From: a virus
IMG/VR virus record: IMGVR_UViG_3300012929_000015
Span: 1-41,289 of that record
DNA: 41,289 bases
Strand: one strand, 5' to 3'
Positions 3,122 through 41,289 of this stretch are shown in pieces (position 1 is the first letter of the stretch; the number at the start of each line of letters is the position of its first letter). A model generated the notes under the pieces. The model ran no database searches, was not told where the DNA came from, and saw nothing but the letters and a program-made list of their open reading frames with translations. Made by a program: the position numbers and the translations under genes.

Positions 3122-4602
3122 GCGTATCCGACATCATCTCCGATAAAGAAGTAAAAGAGGCTTGCAAAAAGTCCCTCCATTTTCTTTGCACGCAGTTTTT
3201 AAAGTACCAAGACTGGGATTTAGTCCACGATGACACCGAAAAATTCCTCGCACGCCCTTCCATGAAAAAAGCCCTTCTTCTTCCCCGCGATCACCTGAAA
3301 ACGAGCATGGTTACGATTGGCAAGTCCATTCAATACATCTTGAACAACCCAAACATTCGGATCTTGATCGCTAATCAGATTTGGGATTTCTCGCGCAAGA
3401 TTCTCTCTGAAATTAAGGGTCATTTTGAAGATAAATCAGATTTGCCGAAACTTTTCGGCAATTTCATCTCCAATCATTGGACGGCAGATTCCGTCATCAT
3501 CAAACAGCGGACGAGATCCCTAAAAGAGCCCACAATCATGACTACCGGCGTTGAAGCTGAAAATACCGGCGGCCATTACGACATTATTTTTCTAGACGAT
3601 TTGATGGGCCACCAGAATTGCCAAACTCCCGAGCAGCGCGAGAAGGCTAAGCGTTTTCGCCGGTCGATGATTGCGCTTTTGGAACCAGGGGGTCAGATCA
3701 TTGATATCGGTACGCGCTGGCATAACGACGATACGTTCTCGGAGATATTCGAGAAGGAAATGGACTATTACGACGTGATGGTGCGGCAGATTGTGGAAAA
3801 TGGGAAGCTCATCTTTCCAAAAAAATTTAACAAACAGTTTGATCCGGTGAAAAAAAATTGGATGCATGTGGATTATCCTTGTCTTGATTATGTGACGCAC
3901 TTAAAGAAGTCCATGACCACGGCAGAATTTTCCGCGCAGTACATGAATCAGCCGGTAGACGAAGAAAACCAGTTATTTAAGCCCGGCTATTTTAAAACAT
4001 ATGATCACCGTCCGGAACGTCTTTTTGTGTCAATGACAATTGACCCGGCTATCTCGCAGAAGAATGCCGCTGACTATTTTGCCATCAATGTCTCGGGAAT
4101 GGACGAGAACTACCGGATCTATGTGCTAGACACCATCAAAGGCCATTGGCGCGTCTCAGAATCAATCGACAACATTTTCACCACCTATCAAAAGTGGCAT
4201 CCGTCGGTGATTGGCCTGGAAACGGTAGCTTATCAAAAAGCCTTAAAGTCCTGGCTTGAAGAGAAGATGCGGGAACATGGAATATTTTTTCCCATCACTG
4301 AGCTGCGGCGCTCGACAAACCAAACCAAAGAATTCCGCATCGAAGCGCTTGAACCTTTTTACCGCGACGGCATGATCTATCACGCCCCGTGGATGAAATC
4401 CCTAGAAGAAGAACTGCTTCAGTTTCCAAAAGGCAAGCACGATGATGAAATTGACGCGCTGGCTTCTCAGCTTGAATTGTTGATGCCGGGGGATTCTCAG
4501 GCGGCAGATGGCGTTCCGGTGGGGTCTTGGGAAGAAGCCTATCAGAATGCCAGAAAATCTAACCAACCCTGGCGCGACTTTTTCCATGAAACGTTGTCTT
4601 AA
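3118..4602 (+). CDS. terL: terminase large subunit
   Basis: 494 aa, TTG start overlapping the preceding TGA. It is the ATPase-nuclease that drives DNA into the prohead. A Walker A-like segment PRDHLKTS lies at about residues 56-63 and a Walker B segment IIFLDDL near 155-161. The C-terminal RNase H-like nuclease shows the three acidic positions expected: D in MTIDPAIS (about 309), E in GLETVAYQK (about 368) and HDDEIDAL (about 442-446). Length fits the family. Headful (pac) packaging is likely given the circularly permuted assembly, but that is inference. Confidence 0.9.
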   Translation: MSVSDIISDKEVKEACKKSLHFLCTQFLKYQDWDLVHDDTEKFLARPSMKKALLLPRDHLKTSMVTIGKSIQYILNNPNIRILIANQIWDFSRKILSEIKGHFEDKSDLPKLFGNFISNHWTADSVIIKQRTRSLKEPTIMTTGVEAENTGGHYDIIFLDDLMGHQNCQTPEQREKAKRFRRSMIALLEPGGQIIDIGTRWHNDDTFSEIFEKEMDYYDVMVRQIVENGKLIFPKKFNKQFDPVKKNWMHVDYPCLDYVTHLKKSMTTAEFSAQYMNQPVDEENQLFKPGYFKTYDHRPERLFVSMTIDPAISQKNAADYFAINVSGMDENYRIYVLDTIKGHWRVSESIDNIFTTYQKWHPSVIGLETVAYQKALKSWLEEKMREHGIFFPITELRRSTNQTKEFRIEALEPFYRDGMIYHAPWMKSLEEELLQFPKGKHDDEIDALASQLELLMPGDSQAADGVPVGSWEEAYQNARKSNQPWRDFFHETLS

Positions 4603-25060: not shown

Positions 25061-25378
25061 ATGACAAAAGTCGATATGAGGGAATATGTTGCCAATTTGG
25101 AAGAATGCATAGACCGTTCCCTAAAATTATGGAAAAAACTTGTCAACATAGAGAACGGGGAAGTTGTTCATTTATCCTGGCAATTTGAACAGACCATTCT
25201 TATCATCGATGTTTTTTGGAAAGACGGGGATGAGGGAATCAATTTGCAGATTCTCCATCCCCGTCAGAGGTATCAATATGAATGGACCGGGCTGACGCCC
25301 GTAAGCCTGGATAACTTAGTGGACCGGGTAGGCAACATCGCCCAGAAAATTATGTACCGCCGCCCTGATGAACGATGA
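25061..25378 (+). CDS. hypothetical protein in lysis region
   Basis: 105 aa beginning MTKVDMREYVANLEEC, with no membrane segment. Middle beta-like stretch (QTILIIDVFWKDGDEGI) and a C-terminal helix. It overlaps the next gene by 11 bp. Unknown; may regulate lysis. Confidence 0.6.
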   Translation: MTKVDMREYVANLEECIDRSLKLWKKLVNIENGEVVHLSWQFEQTILIIDVFWKDGDEGINLQILHPRQRYQYEWTGLTPVSLDNLVDRVGNIAQKIMYRRPDER

Positions 25379-29741: not shown

Positions 29742-29930
29742 ATGGCAGATTTTTGTCGGCAAGCATCCATTGAGTTATTTGGAAAGGATTTTGGGGATTT
29801 TAAAAATCTCTGCAAGTCTCCAATGAAGGTCACTGTTCTTTGTGAAGATTGTGGAATTTCCGATATTGATCATCTGGGCATTTGTCTTGGAGGTCAATTA
29901 TGCAATCATGAAATTCGGAGGGATGGCTGA
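29742..29930 (+). CDS. Cys-rich small protein overlapping tRNA
   Basis: 62 aa from MADFCRQASIELFGKDFGDF, ribosome site GGAGG. Cys at CEDCG and C-L-C near the end suggest metal binding. Its last 14 bases lie inside the tRNA gene, so RNA processing would cut the message; the C-terminal residues (EIRRDG) may be incidental. Confidence 0.55.
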   Translation: MADFCRQASIELFGKDFGDFKNLCKSPMKVTVLCEDCGISDIDHLGICLGGQLCNHEIRRDG

Positions 29931-30002
29931 GCGGTTTAAAGCGCCTGCCTTGAAAGCAGGAAAACCTAATTGGGTTTCGGGGGTTCGAATCCCTCTCCCT
30001 CC
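29917..30002 (+). tRNA. tRNA-Ser (anticodon UGA)
   Basis: Complete cloverleaf of 86 nt: acceptor GGAGGGA (29917-29923) pairs with TCCCTCC (29996-30002); anticodon stem CCTGC/GCAGG encloses loop CTTGAAA with anticodon TGA; a long variable arm (AACC...GGTT) is typical of class II Ser tRNAs; T-arm GGGGG-TTCGAAT-CCCTC. CCA is not encoded, and the next base is T rather than the usual G discriminator. It reads UCA codons; either a translation aid or related to integration. Confidence 0.93.
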
Positions 30003-30119
30003 TATTTTTGAATGTAGCTTCTAGGGATAATCAGACATTCACAGCGTTTCTGAACTTCCCAGCCCTGTGCCAACACACCTCAATTTTTCACTGTATAACG
30101 GTGCAAGTAGCCATTCAGG
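30003..30119. other. non-coding gap after tRNA
   Basis: 117 bp between the tRNA end and the convergent gene at 30120. I see no open frame with a start or ribosome site and no strong terminator. Because integrases often use tRNA 3' ends, this is one place an attachment core could lie, but no core can be shown from one genome. Confidence 0.4.
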
Positions 30120-30560
30120 CTATGCACTTACTTCCGCAATTAATTTGTCACCCGTTGCGATTGTCTCGTCCTCTTTTTCGGTTCTATCCTTCCTCATGCG
30201 AAGTTGGTGCACCGCCTTTTTAAGCTGATAAATCAGCTTGTCGTGATAATTTACTGCACGCACGACAAAAACAGCATTGTCTGGGTCTTGGAAGTGCCCA
30301 ATATAGCTATCCATATAGTAAGGCACGCCATTTCTCATATATTCCGATGCGATAAATGTTGAATGCTCCGTATAAGCGACGGTTTGGTCCTTGTTGAGTT
30401 CTTTTATCTGTAAACTCACTTTCCAAGGGCCGGGTGTCCTGTATTGCGTTTCGGGCTCCTTTTCTTTATTCGGGATATTCAATGCCGGCACCATAGCGAA
30501 CCCTCCAAACGTAACGCTCGGCTTAGATCTAAAAAGTGTTTTCCACCACTGGTTTTTCAT
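30120..30560 (-). CDS. TPGPW/VRAVN-family phage protein
   Basis: 146 aa. A short N-terminal extension, then TPGPWKVSLQIKEL and near the end DNAVFVVRAVNYHDKLIYQL. This is the widespread phage family with a TPxPW start and a NAAFIVRAVNxH signature; four copies exist in this window. The function is not known. Last gene of the long leftward operon. Confidence 0.7.
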   Translation of the reverse strand: MKNQWWKTLFRSKPSVTFGGFAMVPALNIPNKEKEPETQYRTPGPWKVSLQIKELNKDQTVAYTEHSTFIASEYMRNGVPYYMDSYIGHFQDPDNAVFVVRAVNYHDKLIYQLKKAVHQLRMRKDRTEKEDETIATGDKLIAEVSA

Positions 30561-34818: not shown

Positions 34819-34970
34819 TGGGCAGTCTCCTTTTTTTTGTTTTTAATGTAATGGCGGATATTTTCTCGGGTAGCTTGGTTCCTAAGTTCATGTAGCCATT
34901 CTTTTTCTTCCTGCGAGAGATGACGCAAGTCTAAAGACAAAATGCGCTCCAGGATTTCCAACCGTGTCAT
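34815..34970 (-). CDS. small helical protein
   Basis: 51 aa from MTRLEILERILSLDLRHLS, coupled to the upstream gene by ATGA; the upstream extension in frame is a shadow. Charged helix ending NKKKETAQ. Unknown. Confidence 0.6.
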   Translation of the reverse strand: MTRLEILERILSLDLRHLSQEEKEWLHELRNQATRENIRHYIKNKKKETAQ

Positions 34971-35338
34971 TGTAGGCCTTCCGCTTTGGCGAAAGCTTCC
35001 GCGAAAGGGCAACCACTCTCATCAATTGAACAGCAATTCGATCTTGCATGAAGGACTCGCAGGGCAGCTAGTAATTCCTCATGAGCATTGACGGCCCGGA
35101 CGATGAAGGCAGCGTCTTCATTCTGTCTTTTGCTTTTTGGCAAACCTAGCGAAGCTATATATCCCCATTGATTTGCGATACATATTTCATTGTTTCCATC
35201 TCTTACTACGCTCCACGGCGTCGCCATGTGTTGGGTTTTTAAATTTCTTCCACAATTAAGGCAAGTCCCATTCGATGTAATTTCGTTTTCAGAATTACAT
35301 CCTGCACAGTCGTATAAGATCGTTGATTTCTTTTTCAT
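34967..35338 (-). CDS. zinc ribbon fused to VRAVN-family domain
   Basis: 123 aa from MKKKSTILYDCAGC; GGGGGA ribosome site. An N-terminal four-Cys ribbon (CAGC...CLNC) is followed by a TPW-type segment (ATPWSVVRDG) and DAAFIVRAVNAHEELLAAL, the same family as 30120, 36004 and 36299. A further CC and C near the end. The fusion is informative: the family domain works with a zinc-binding partner. Confidence 0.7.
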   Translation of the reverse strand: MKKKSTILYDCAGCNSENEITSNGTCLNCGRNLKTQHMATPWSVVRDGNNEICIANQWGYIASLGLPKSKRQNEDAAFIVRAVNAHEELLAALRVLHARSNCCSIDESGCPFAEAFAKAEGLQ

Positions 35339-35339
35339 C

Positions 35340-35582
35340 TTAAATCCCCCTTTTATTCCCATATTCATGGCAGCGTAAATCGATCCAGAGGTCCCGGAAC
35401 GGCGAGTCTTCAAAATCAAGCTTGCGTTTAAACGTGGACGCTTGATCGCACATTTTGGGGCAGATGACGGCTAAGCTAAAGCCATTTAAGCGGGCGAGGT
35501 AGGCAATCTCGTCCGGCGCCCGCCCTTGCAGGTAGCGATAATTGCGCCTGAGCCAGGCGTTAAATTCCTGGGATTCGGTCAT
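35340..35582 (-). CDS. small hypothetical protein
   Basis: 80 aa from MTESQEFNAWLRRNYRYLQG; the frame extends upstream but this start has AAGGAAG. Aromatic/Arg-rich, with one C-x3-C (CPKMC). Not recognised. Confidence 0.6.
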   Translation of the reverse strand: MTESQEFNAWLRRNYRYLQGRAPDEIAYLARLNGFSLAVICPKMCDQASTFKRKLDFEDSPFRDLWIDLRCHEYGNKRGI

Positions 35583-35874: not shown

Positions 35875-36017
35875 GGGTAGGCCACCTCTTTTAAATAGTC
35901 CATACAGCATTGGTTCGCGTTCTTATTTTTGAAGTCTGTTTTCAAGTCATCGGCGAAACCTTCACAGCCGCATTCAGGGCAGGAGTAGAATGATTCGAGC
36001 ATGTCATCGTTCATCAT
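35871..36017 (-). CDS. zinc-knuckle microprotein
   Basis: 48 aa from MMNDDMLESFYSCPECGCEG; Cys at 13, 16, 18 and a CC at 37-38 give one possible zinc site. The two-ATG start overlaps the upstream gene by 14 bp. Not recognised. Confidence 0.6.
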   Translation of the reverse strand: MMNDDMLESFYSCPECGCEGFADDLKTDFKNKNANQCCMDYLKEVAYP

Positions 36018-36297
36018 GGCTGCCCTCCGCTTTAGAAATGGATTCTAATGCCATTTTCCATGCTTCATGATCCTGAGAAAGTCCCATTGCCTCAAAATAA
36101 AGACATGCTCGCTTTAGCGATTTAATTAACATCTCATGAGAATTTACTGCTCTGACAATGAAGGCCGCATTAGCTAATGATGTTTGGTCTGGAATCTTAT
36201 TTCTAATTCCATTGTGACAATTTGCAATCCAGGGTCCATTAAAAATGGTGCCTCTATCGTTCATTCGCCAAGGCGTGGGTGTGTGCTGAGATTTCAT
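36004..36297 (-). CDS. TPTPW/VRAVN-family phage protein
   Basis: 97 aa. Short, canonical member: TPTPWRMNDRGTIFNGPWIA, then ANAAFIVRAVNSHEMLIKSL. GGAAGG ribosome site. Paralogue of the next gene and of 30120 and 34967. Confidence 0.7.
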   Translation of the reverse strand: MKSQHTPTPWRMNDRGTIFNGPWIANCHNGIRNKIPDQTSLANAAFIVRAVNSHEMLIKSLKRACLYFEAMGLSQDHEAWKMALESISKAEGSHDER

Positions 36298-36298
36298 A

Positions 36299-36742
36299 TT
36301 ACTTGCCTTCCACTTTGGCGATGACTGCTAGATATTCCGCTCTCGTCTTATCCAATAATCCATTTAATTTATTTGGGCGCGCATGACATTCATCGTCTAG
36401 CTGAATTAATAATTTTGCAGCTTTTAATAATGCCTCATGAGCATTCACCGCACGAACGATGTATTCGGCATTAGCCTTAGGATCAGTACGTAAGGAAGAT
36501 CTAACGCTCGTTACTAAATGCCAGCCATCCAAAGACCGGATATCCGAATTTTCTCTAGGATCAATTTCCCATGGTGTTGGGGAATGTTCTGGTTGTGTGA
36601 TTAATGCACAATTTCCAAAGTGTCCAAGTTGTTTGTTATTTTGGACATCGTAGGTACACGCCGATGGCGTGTGGCCTGCAACACATTTGCAAACTGTAGC
36701 TTGATCCCCAGCGATTTCCCGGCAATCTTGTGTGTGTTCCAT
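36299..36742 (-). CDS. VRAVN-family protein with Cys-rich N-terminal extension
   Basis: 147 aa. Residues 1-50 are Cys/His-rich (DCREIAGDQATVCKCVAGHT, CTYDVQN) and likely metal-binding, then SPTPWEIDPRENS and NAEYIVRAVNAHEALLKAAK. Same domain pairing as 34967, reached independently or by recombination. Confidence 0.7.
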   Translation of the reverse strand: MEHTQDCREIAGDQATVCKCVAGHTPSACTYDVQNNKQLGHFGNCALITQPEHSPTPWEIDPRENSDIRSLDGWHLVTSVRSSLRTDPKANAEYIVRAVNAHEALLKAAKLLIQLDDECHARPNKLNGLLDKTRAEYLAVIAKVEGK

Positions 36743-37099: not shown

Positions 37100-37312
37100 T
37101 TAGTGGGCTCCTTTTTCATCATCATTCCCGAATTTAATCGGAGCTTCAATTTCAGTTAAGGCATCGACGAGCAAGTGCTTAATGCGGATCACCCGTTCTT
37201 CCGCGCTGATCTCATCGTCTAAGATGACGGTGATTCGAAGAATCTCGCGGATCAAATTCATCAGCTCTTTTCTGTTCATACTTAAGTCTATCATAATATT
37301 ATTATTATTCAA
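37100..37312 (-). CDS. first gene of long leftward operon
   Basis: 70 aa with several possible starts (the internal MNRKELMNLIREILRITV is another). Amphipathic helices and acidic residues (ILDDEISAEERVIRI). No ribosome site is obvious. It follows the promoter at 37336-37365. Confidence 0.55.
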   Translation of the reverse strand: MNNNNIMIDLSMNRKELMNLIREILRITVILDDEISAEERVIRIKHLLVDALTEIEAPIKFGNDDEKGAH

Positions 37313-37335
37313 GGTTTAAGTAGGTGATGGAAAAG

Positions 37336-37365
37336 ATTTTACAAGTGTTGCACTTAGGCGGTCAA
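37336..37365 (-). promoter_or_regulatory. predicted promoter of long leftward operon
   Basis: On the minus strand: TTGACC (37360-37365), 18-bp spacer with operator O6 inside, TAAAAT (37336-37341). Same architecture as the promoter at 28947-28976. Confidence 0.65.
37343..37355. promoter_or_regulatory. operator O6 (AAGTG-TTG-CACTT)
   Basis: Perfect palindrome located between the -35 and -10 boxes, so binding would block the long leftward operon. Confidence 0.65.
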
Positions 37366-37557
37366 TAGCGATATATAAGGAATAACCACGATGCTGCTGT
37401 AAAAGCCTTAAAAACAGGCATTGGAGCATTAAGGCTCATTTAAACCTGCTTTATTGATGAATAACACCGTTGTATTGCTTATTACGAGCTATGCTGAAGC
37501 ATCACAATGCATGATGAACATGTTTTAGGGGTCTTAAATCGCATCCTAGCGCATAAT

Positions 37558-37585
37558 TTGACAAATGGTTTAAATGAGCTATTGT
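37558..37585 (+). promoter_or_regulatory. predicted rightward promoter into structured region
   Basis: TTGACA (37558-37563), 16-bp spacer, TATTGT (37580-37585). The predicted start, about 37592, coincides with the first base of the interleaved inverted repeat. A 7-bp inverted pair, GCGCATA (37549-37555) and TATGCGC (37591-37597), flanks it. Confidence 0.5.
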
Positions 37586-37593
37586 TTTTGTAT

Positions 37594-37685
37594 GCGCGAT
37601 CTGATACAAAAGAACTGTAGCCCCTTTTATGGCCTGCGAAATCAATTCTTTTGTATTGATCGCGCCGCAGGCCATTGAAGGGGTT
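37594..37685 (+). ncRNA. candidate structured RNA with interleaved inverted repeats
   Basis: Two long inverted repeats are interleaved in the order A-B-A'-B'. A (37594-37614) matches A' (37646-37665) with one bulge; B (37619-37638) matches B' (37666-37685) with three mismatches. A' and B' touch. Both stems cannot form fully at once (loops of 4 and 7 nt cannot span 20-bp helices), so they look like alternative folds. A short hairpin with a T run (AAGGG/CCCTT then TTT, 37678-37694) follows and could terminate. Not a family I recognise. Confidence 0.45.
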
Positions 37686-37858
37686 TCCCTTTTTCCAACC
37701 TGCCGGTTTTAAACGTTTAACCGAAATCAAAAAGTCGAATGTATCAGCGCGTAAGCTTGTAGCCCTTCACCTGAAAATCCTGGGGCTAATGGTATCCAAA
37801 AGGTTATAGAGAACCTGCATCACCCTACGATTGGGACCGGGGAATTGCTTAAAGCTTT

Positions 37859-38032
37859 ATGATGATGGCGATAGCAGCGCTTGAACAAAGCCTTCTCAGG
37901 GAGGAAAGAAAATTGTTAAAATGTACTTTGCTCGTACGCGCGCGCCCGCATAGAGCTAAACGTGCTCTTGACAGAATAAGGGGTAAAGAGCTACTTTTGC
38001 TTTCGCCAACGGCTTTCCGGTTTTTGATGTAA
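37859..38032 (+). CDS. weak 57-aa ORF
   Basis: Begins MMMAIAALEQSLLREERKLL, then basic residues and LLLLSPTAFRFLM. No ribosome site at the ATGs; a TTG at about codon 19 has GGAGG upstream and could be the start of a shorter protein. Composition is only moderately protein-like. Confidence 0.25.
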   Translation: MMMAIAALEQSLLREERKLLKCTLLVRARPHRAKRALDRIRGKELLLLSPTAFRFLM

Positions 38033-38043
38033 ATGGGAGAGGT

Positions 38044-38307
38044 ATGGATGAACAGTTTGTTACCCACAGATATATTCCTAATTGCGCAAAAGGGTCACAC
38101 AATTGGAAGCTCGTCTTCAAGACGCATCATAACAATTTATCTTGGGTGAAAGTGTGTAGGCGCTGCGATACGGTTAAATCGGTCATTGGCTCGTTTGATA
38201 ATGATGGACAATGGATTAAACGGAAGCAATTGGATTATGGCAATGGGCCAGGCGAACGGACGGGCGATAGCCCGGACGGAAGCAGGGCCAATGAAGGCGC
38301 CGACTGA
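38044..38307 (+). CDS. small zinc-binding protein, repeat-extended C-terminus
   Basis: 87 aa, GGGAGAGG ribosome site. The first 65 residues look real: NCAKGSHNW, then SWVKVCRRCDTVKSVIGSF. The last 20 (GPGERTGDSPDGSRANEGAD) are encoded by the first ACGGA/GATA hairpin unit and may be an insertion-derived tail. Confidence 0.6.
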   Translation: MDEQFVTHRYIPNCAKGSHNWKLVFKTHHNNLSWVKVCRRCDTVKSVIGSFDNDGQWIKRKQLDYGNGPGERTGDSPDGSRANEGAD

Positions 38308-38337
38308 CCGGCGACGGAGCGCGATAGCGCGAACGGA
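38254..38337. repeat. twin GATA-loop hairpins flanked by ACGGA
   Basis: Unit 1 (38254-38280): ACGGA, stem CGGGC-GATA-GCCCG, ACGGA. Unit 2 (38313-38337): ACGGA, stem GCGC-GATA-GCGC, ACGGA. The stems differ in sequence yet remain perfectly paired, with the same loop and flanks, which suggests that structure is being conserved. Confidence 0.5.
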
Positions 38338-38380
38338 GCATGGTCTAAGGTTATGGTAAGGGTTAGAGCAGGGGGATTGG

Positions 38381-41033: not shown

Positions 41034-41289
41034 CCCCCACTGAACGTGCTGAGAAGATTCTGAAAGTTTTGTTGGCTTTTTATATTGATCGAGAAGGAGA
41101 ACTTTTAGATGAAGAATGTGCTATAGGGCATATCACCGCCCAAATAGCAGAAGCGCAGCGGGACATAGAAAAAGAAGTAAGGCAACAGGAAATGAATCGA
41201 AAGATTCTTGTGGCTATGGAGGATCTAAATAAAGCTGAAATTAAAGGTTTCATCGTCGCCCGCGACCAAGCGGCGGGGATTGCAGATGG
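41030..41289 (+). CDS. hypothetical protein, 5' part of junction-spanning gene
   Basis: Starts MTPTERAEKILKVLLAF and runs off the window; across the circle it continues to 211 (about 115 aa). Near-identical first 28 bases to the paralogue at 208 (one base differs in the fourth codon region). See 1-211. Confidence 0.85.
   Translation, partial: MTPTERAEKILKVLLAFYIDREGELLDEECAIGHITAQIAEAQRDIEKEVRQQEMNRKILVAMEDLNKAEIKGFIVARDQAAGIAD
41167..41289. repeat. terminal direct repeat (right copy)
   Basis: Exact copy of bases 1-123; the circle overlap described at the left end. Confidence 0.95.

Follow-up and report, generated by a model that had tools for sequence, protein, structure and literature searches.

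To our knowledge, RNA immunity of the C4/CI type is known from a few enterobacterial elements and their sequence relatives. In phage P4, the CI RNA brings about premature termination by pairing with seqA upstream and seqC downstream (PMC4825925), and in P1 the C4 RNA acts in trans as a repressor of Ant synthesis (PMC8546580). When we gave our detector of interleaved stems the immI region of phage P1 as annotated, its top crossing pair joined a1b1 (locus 556-576) to the C4 antisense (681-700); the stem crossed is the one that closes C4 (643-660/701-718), and no base separates the antisense from the 3' stem strand. In P4 (reverse-complement locus coordinates), seqA (2949-2964) pairs with 3177-3192, a segment that abuts or overlaps 3184-3200, the 3' half of the CI stem. 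An identical layout is found in the control region of an uncultured phage, and we lean, with moderate confidence, towards reading it as a C4/CI-type self-targeting antisense immunity RNA, encoded in the leader with which an early operon of the phage begins.

The element lies in the divergent control region of a probably complete phage genome

The stretch of DNA analysed here (the window) is an IMG/VR virus record of 41,289 bases. Since a 123-base repeat stands in identical form at both of its ends (1-123 and 41167-41289), the window is probably a complete, circularly assembled genome. Its rightward block encodes terminase, portal, capsid and amidase and its leftward block integrase, an SSB-like protein and an exonuclease; the tyrosine integrase suggests that the phage integrates. 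Terminase alignments yielded 31 viral contigs and one close contig, from a Gallionella sp. MAG (L046, JANYHX010000317.1, prophage-like; terminase, 70%), which is the only close relative from a named genome. This match points to Gallionellaceae as possible hosts, and 399 genomes from the order of that MAG gave no other match.

Several further features of the window were recorded. A small protein family, phrog_1273 ('HTPTPW...FIVRAVNAHEELL'), has paralogues at 30120-30560, 34967-35419, 36004-36297 and 36299-36742, all on the minus strand, and homologues in the early regions of contigs G008, G013, G015, G022 and L060. Inside the early region of the window lies a tRNA-Ser(TGA) (29917-30003, +), possibly phage-borne or an attachment-site relic. 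Two similar GATA-loop hairpins (GGGCGATAGCCC, GCGCGATAGCGC) with ACGGA-type repeats on their flanks occupy 38250-38340 (+), and a 44-nt imperfect direct repeat (86%) is found at 77-120 and 406-449, among the small ORFs that open the rightward block.

The element sits in a divergent control region, flanked by leftward genes that begin at 37312 and rightward ones that begin at 37913/38044 (Table 1). The original prediction placed it in a gene-free gap of 731 bp; the length (37313-38043) is correct, but the description is slightly overstated, as the right end holds an ORF of 39 aa that is preceded by a good ribosome-binding site. The 87-aa ORF that follows displays 30% identity to an ORF adjoining the control region of G009. 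Operator-like dyads are seen in the spacers of both divergent promoters and suggest that protein repression may act on top of the RNA element.

Table 1. Features of the control region and of the candidate RNA element, in window coordinates
Feature	Position	Strand	Basis or remark
Divergent leftward promoter, TTGACC-18-TAAAAT	37336-37365	-	promoter scan
Dyad AAGTGTTGCACTT in spacer of leftward promoter	37343-37355		read from sequence
Inverse copy GGCTCATTTAAACC of operator-like element	37433-37446	.	120 nt apart from the 37567-37580 copy
Sigma70-like promoter, TTGACA-16-TATTGT (10/12)	37558-37585	+	predicted start at about 37592, at A
Operator-like element GGTTTAAATGAGCT in spacer of rightward promoter	37567-37580	.	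14-nt inverted repeat; putative operator
A, proposed target/antiterminator segment, 5' end of predicted transcript	37594-37614	+	counterpart of P1 a1b1 / P4 seqA
B, 5' strand of closing stem of C4-like hairpin	37619-37638	+	stem detection
C4-like hairpin RNA, 67 nt	37619-37685	+	RNA folding; MFE -36.6 kcal/mol
A', proposed antisense segment, complementary to A, flush 5' of B'	37646-37665	+	stem detection
B', 3' strand of closing stem	37666-37685	+	stem detection
Alternative hairpin C, predicted once A:A' has formed	37667-37703	+	prefix folding
Interrupted T tract TTTCCCTTTTT after B', terminator-like tail	37684-37694	+	
Small gene that may open the rightward operon, 39 aa, TTG start	37913-38032	+	ORF with SD AGGGAGG at 37898-37904
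First listed ORF of rightward operon, 87 aa, no assigned function	38044-38307	+	

Two exceptional stems cross and exclude each other

Stem detection recovered the two inverted repeats of the original prediction at exactly the positions given there, with A' abutting B'. Taken singly, no other stem in the whole 41-kb window scores as high as A:A' and B:B' (42.0 and 41.5). As a crossing pair they reach 41.5, whereas 40 first-order Markov genomes gave 29 at most and the next-best crossing pair in the window 28.5; none of 300 local 500-nt shuffles attained 41.5, and folding of the element region gave a z of -5.3. A:A' comprises 8 + 11 bp around a 2-nt/1-nt bulge. In B:B', 18 of the 20 positions pair well, the rest being G-U or one U-U, and the stem contains a perfect 10-bp core, ATGGCCTGCG. 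The 67-nt RNA holds an additional inner hairpin (37641-37646/37655-37660, AUCAAU/AUUGAU).

Because A' ends where B' begins, with zero nucleotides at the junction, the full A:A' and the full B:B' stems are predicted to exclude each other, and a simultaneous pseudoknot of both was rejected as sterically excluded wherever this junction (L3) is 0. The two states are nearly isoenergetic when 37592-37700 is folded (-38.6 kcal/mol with A:A', -38.8 with B:B'). Along the promoter strand, with prefixes folded at every fourth length and minimum energies standing in for real co-transcriptional folding, A:A' was the minimum until 37681 and B:B' from 37685; with longer prefixes A:A' together with hairpin C took over from 37701 and B:B' was back from 37753. 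The competition between stems that had been anticipated is thus borne out by energies, prefix folding and the junction. A third possible partner of A, A'' (37739-37753), is weakly significant (7/400 shuffles) and was not relied on, and reading the element on the minus strand was discarded, both promoter and T tract being absent from that side.

The sigma70-like promoter that had been proposed is present; on its own the call carries little weight, because six promoter-like sites were found around the element against 3.5 expected, although its alignment with A recurs in relatives, as set out below. Downstream, the short hairpin and T run noted at 37678-37694 do exist but did not pass a terminator scan, which called no terminator at the element. 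With its interrupted T tract and a loop of 27 nt, B:B' of the window is not a textbook terminator.

The layout recurs at promoters of related phages in unrelated sequences

Searches at the DNA level found no homologue of the element in phages and only chance-level matches in plasmids. Likewise, the integrase, the HTH protein, the 87-aa ORF and the exact element pattern, used as queries, recovered no sequence relatives in viral contigs. Because no terminase relative shares DNA with the element, we applied the topology detector to 35 contigs (605 kb, both strands). A first scan required a sigma70 promoter with a predicted start within 6 nt of A and returned, at a score of at least 25, the window (41.5), G005 (28.5), G022 (26.5, with an identical copy in G023) and G015 (25.0). 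A second scan set no condition on the promoter and asked instead that B' be followed by a T-rich tract. Its list held G005, G015 and G022/G023 but not the window, whose T tract is interrupted. By chance, 0.25 matches of at least 25 were expected per Markov set in the first scan and no Markov match of at least 24 arose in four sets in the second, counts that serve as a guide and not as formal probabilities, the cut-offs having been set after the first relatives were seen. A weaker fifth instance, in G021 (22.5), passes both scans; its promoter is better read as TTGACA-17-CATAAT than as the scan's choice, B' is followed by TTCTTTTTAAAGGGAGGTAAGAAATG, and a U-run, an SD and an ATG come in turn downstream. 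Out of 300 local shuffles each, the observed score was reached by none for the window, G005 and G015, by one for G022 and by two for G021.

The five instances have unrelated sequences and a common plan of promoter, A, B, A', B' and T-rich tract, and the promoter/A spacing of the window recurs in G005, G015, G022/G023 and G021. The T tract lies at or within 2 nt of the stem in G021, G022 and G015, is weaker in G005 and interrupted in the window. L3 is 0 nt in the window, G005 and G022, 8 nt in G021 and 14 nt in G015; a flush junction occurs in about 10% of random crossing pairs (9/93). In all five, the prefix ending at A' folds as A:A', and the minimum flips to B:B' at the completed B' in the window, G005 and G021, whereas it remains A:A' in G015 and G022. 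A:A' of G022 falls into two parts of about 11 and 9 bp with a bulge between them, which recalls a1 and b1. As for the genes downstream, the G021 element lies upstream of RecT-like and NinG-like genes, the G005 element upstream of a replication initiation gene, and the G022/G023 element would drive an operon pointing away from the terminase. The alignable covariation in homologues that the original prediction had looked to is absent, there being no shared sequence, but the A-B-A'-B' order is found at the same promoter position in four independent relatives.

Other candidates were set aside. The L046 candidate (A at 1453, span of 131 nt, 11 nt from the predicted start) fails on span and on start, a G004 candidate at 25088 (score 20) is at background level, and a 25-nt match of 37708-37732 in G027 was dismissed since the sequence there looks coding. 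No convincing element was found in the control regions of G008, G009 and G013, though early regions are present. An 8-bp perfect dyad, AGCCTATTgacaAATAGGCT, was also noted in G015, where it covers the -35 box from which the element would be transcribed (L036, 1931-1950).

A proposed self-targeting antisense switch and its alternatives

From layout and folding we infer that the element is transcribed, terminates through B:B', acts in trans and has a role in immunity. Transcription would start at A. With A' made before B', A:A' would form first and, as A' abuts B', would block B:B', and polymerase would read through into the operon. RNA from earlier transcripts, either the B-A'-B' hairpin or a free A tail, would occupy A or A' in trans; with A:A' prevented, B:B' and the U-rich tail would cause a stop about 90-105 nt from the start. 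The terminated product would be more of the same RNA, and the immune (lysogenic) state would sustain itself, while in a naive cell an infecting genome would read through. Target and antisense, lying on one transcript, would change together, and immunity specificity could drift freely. Such coupled evolution would give complete sequence turnover under a constant layout, and would explain why the relatives keep the layout without the sequence.

What weighs most against this reading is that no convincing second target was found. Both C4 and CI possess two, and the best candidate downstream in the window (a2b2/seqC-like, 37828-37847) reached p = 0.09 and others p = 0.04-0.6, compared with p = 0.015 for the P1 control. 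The element may be a simpler form with one target, or a purely cis-acting attenuator. Speaking against an antisense, too, are the predicted persistence of A:A' in G015 and G022 after B' has been made, the interrupted T tract and long B:B' loop of the window, the failure to match Rfam C4 or to find an icd/ant-like gene, and the several relatives whose early regions gave no such element.

An attenuator working in cis only, in which a protein, a ligand or the speed of transcription would decide between an A:A' antiterminator and a B:B' terminator, is the main competitor, and we judge it unlikely but worth keeping in view. It would account for the exclusivity, the folding order and the T tracts without any RNA in trans, and it has the failure to find a second target of the C4/CI type in its favour. 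A leader that binds a ligand or protein should, however, keep some sequence, and the five instances keep architecture only; moreover, the layout, including the flush antisense, is that of two known antisense RNAs that act in trans.

We regard as improbable that the element is a Put-like or pseudoknot RNA acting in cis on RNA polymerase, which would then resist downstream terminators. The putL of HK022 is a structured RNA of about 70 nt with an early promoter just upstream (PMC9378689), and a structured RNA of some 70-90 nt would similarly open an early phage transcript here; the loops of G015 (23, 1 and 14 nt) would even permit a true H-type pseudoknot. Put RNAs, in contrast, have a common sequence and two stem-loops, where the elements have crossing, exclusive stems and no common sequence, and no Rfam or sequence match to put was obtained. 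Where L3 is 0, as in the window, G005 and G022, there is no room for both full stems at once, and a T tract directly after the element suggests stopping and not anti-stopping.

RNA-based control of replication or copy number, in the manner of a plasmid or an extrachromosomal prophage, could be imagined from the position of the G005 element upstream of its replication initiation gene, but seems decidedly improbable given that the tyrosine integrase of the window suggests integration and that the downstream genes of the relatives differ and are not all replication genes. Finally, chance or a DNA-level feature without RNA function (nested operators, an inversion remnant) has operator-like repeats nearby in its favour and is very improbable, as the Markov genomes, both scans and the local shuffles argue strongly against chance and DNA operators give no reason to expect that sequences without relation to each other should combine T tracts with repeats where transcription is predicted to start.

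Under the antisense immunity reading, versions in unrelated sequence at early-operon promoters of related uncultured phages suggest a fast-changing RNA immunity switch. A wider extrapolation, which we offer tentatively and with more doubt than confidence, is that there exists a widespread, Rfam-invisible class of immunity switches, in which a leader of about 90 nt serves as target, as antisense and as terminator, the terminated RNA itself enforces further termination, two crossing stems are all that is required, specificity changes without limit as target and antisense are neighbours, immunity groups evolve by RNA drift, and members can be found by topology alone and not by sequence. If the element of the window works as proposed, RNA-based superinfection immunity would be commoner than Rfam-style searches can show, and a simple topological scan, for a promoter at which stems cross and a T tract behind them, could find such switches. 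The element would also offer a minimal RNA switch that can be tested directly and whose specificity can be exchanged.

Comparison with known systems

In attenuation of the plasmid pT181 type, an antisense RNA acts on the nascent leader and frees the terminator from the antiterminator. Antisense binding would have the same effect here. The pT181-type antisense, however, is transcribed from the other strand, whereas here a single transcript of one strand carries both target and antisense.

The Rfam C4 models recognise P1 as well as P4, whereas neither the window nor its relatives match RF01695 or RF03163 at gathering or relaxed thresholds (E<=5-10), the relaxed matches being to eukaryotic/viral or plainly chance models only. 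Nor is there an icd/ant-like gene in the window, where the downstream genes have no assigned functions. Because an Rfam match, a convincing second target and an icd/ant gene are all lacking, we do not file the element as a C4 RNA; it is C4-like at the level of layout. It differs from the C4 RNA of P1/P7 (RF01695; c4-a1b1, RF03163) in the distance from target to hairpin (4-23 nt in the instances described here, 66 in C4), in the T tract that follows the hairpin, and, for P1 C4, in having a C-rich 5' and a G-rich 3' stem strand, the reverse of P1. Compared with P4 CI, it shows no sequence or Rfam similarity and no demonstrated counterpart of seqC.

The layout of C4 and CI is now seen at early promoters of uncultured phages, without common sequence. 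As in P1/P7 C4, target, 5' stem, antisense and 3' stem follow in order on one transcript, an antisense of about 20 nt runs directly into the 3' stem strand (L3 is 0 both in P1 and in the window), the hairpin is of comparable size (67 nt against 77), and the promoter carries a repressor operator or operator-like site. As in P4 CI, an upstream target pairs with a segment that abuts or overlaps the 3' stem strand, and an early-operon leader would be under premature-termination control (PMC4825925). The original prediction of a switching leader, attenuator or novel small RNA had the class right but overlooked this layout, and the antisense-immunity reading modelled on P1 C4 and P4 CI appears both more specific and better supported than that of a generic attenuator.
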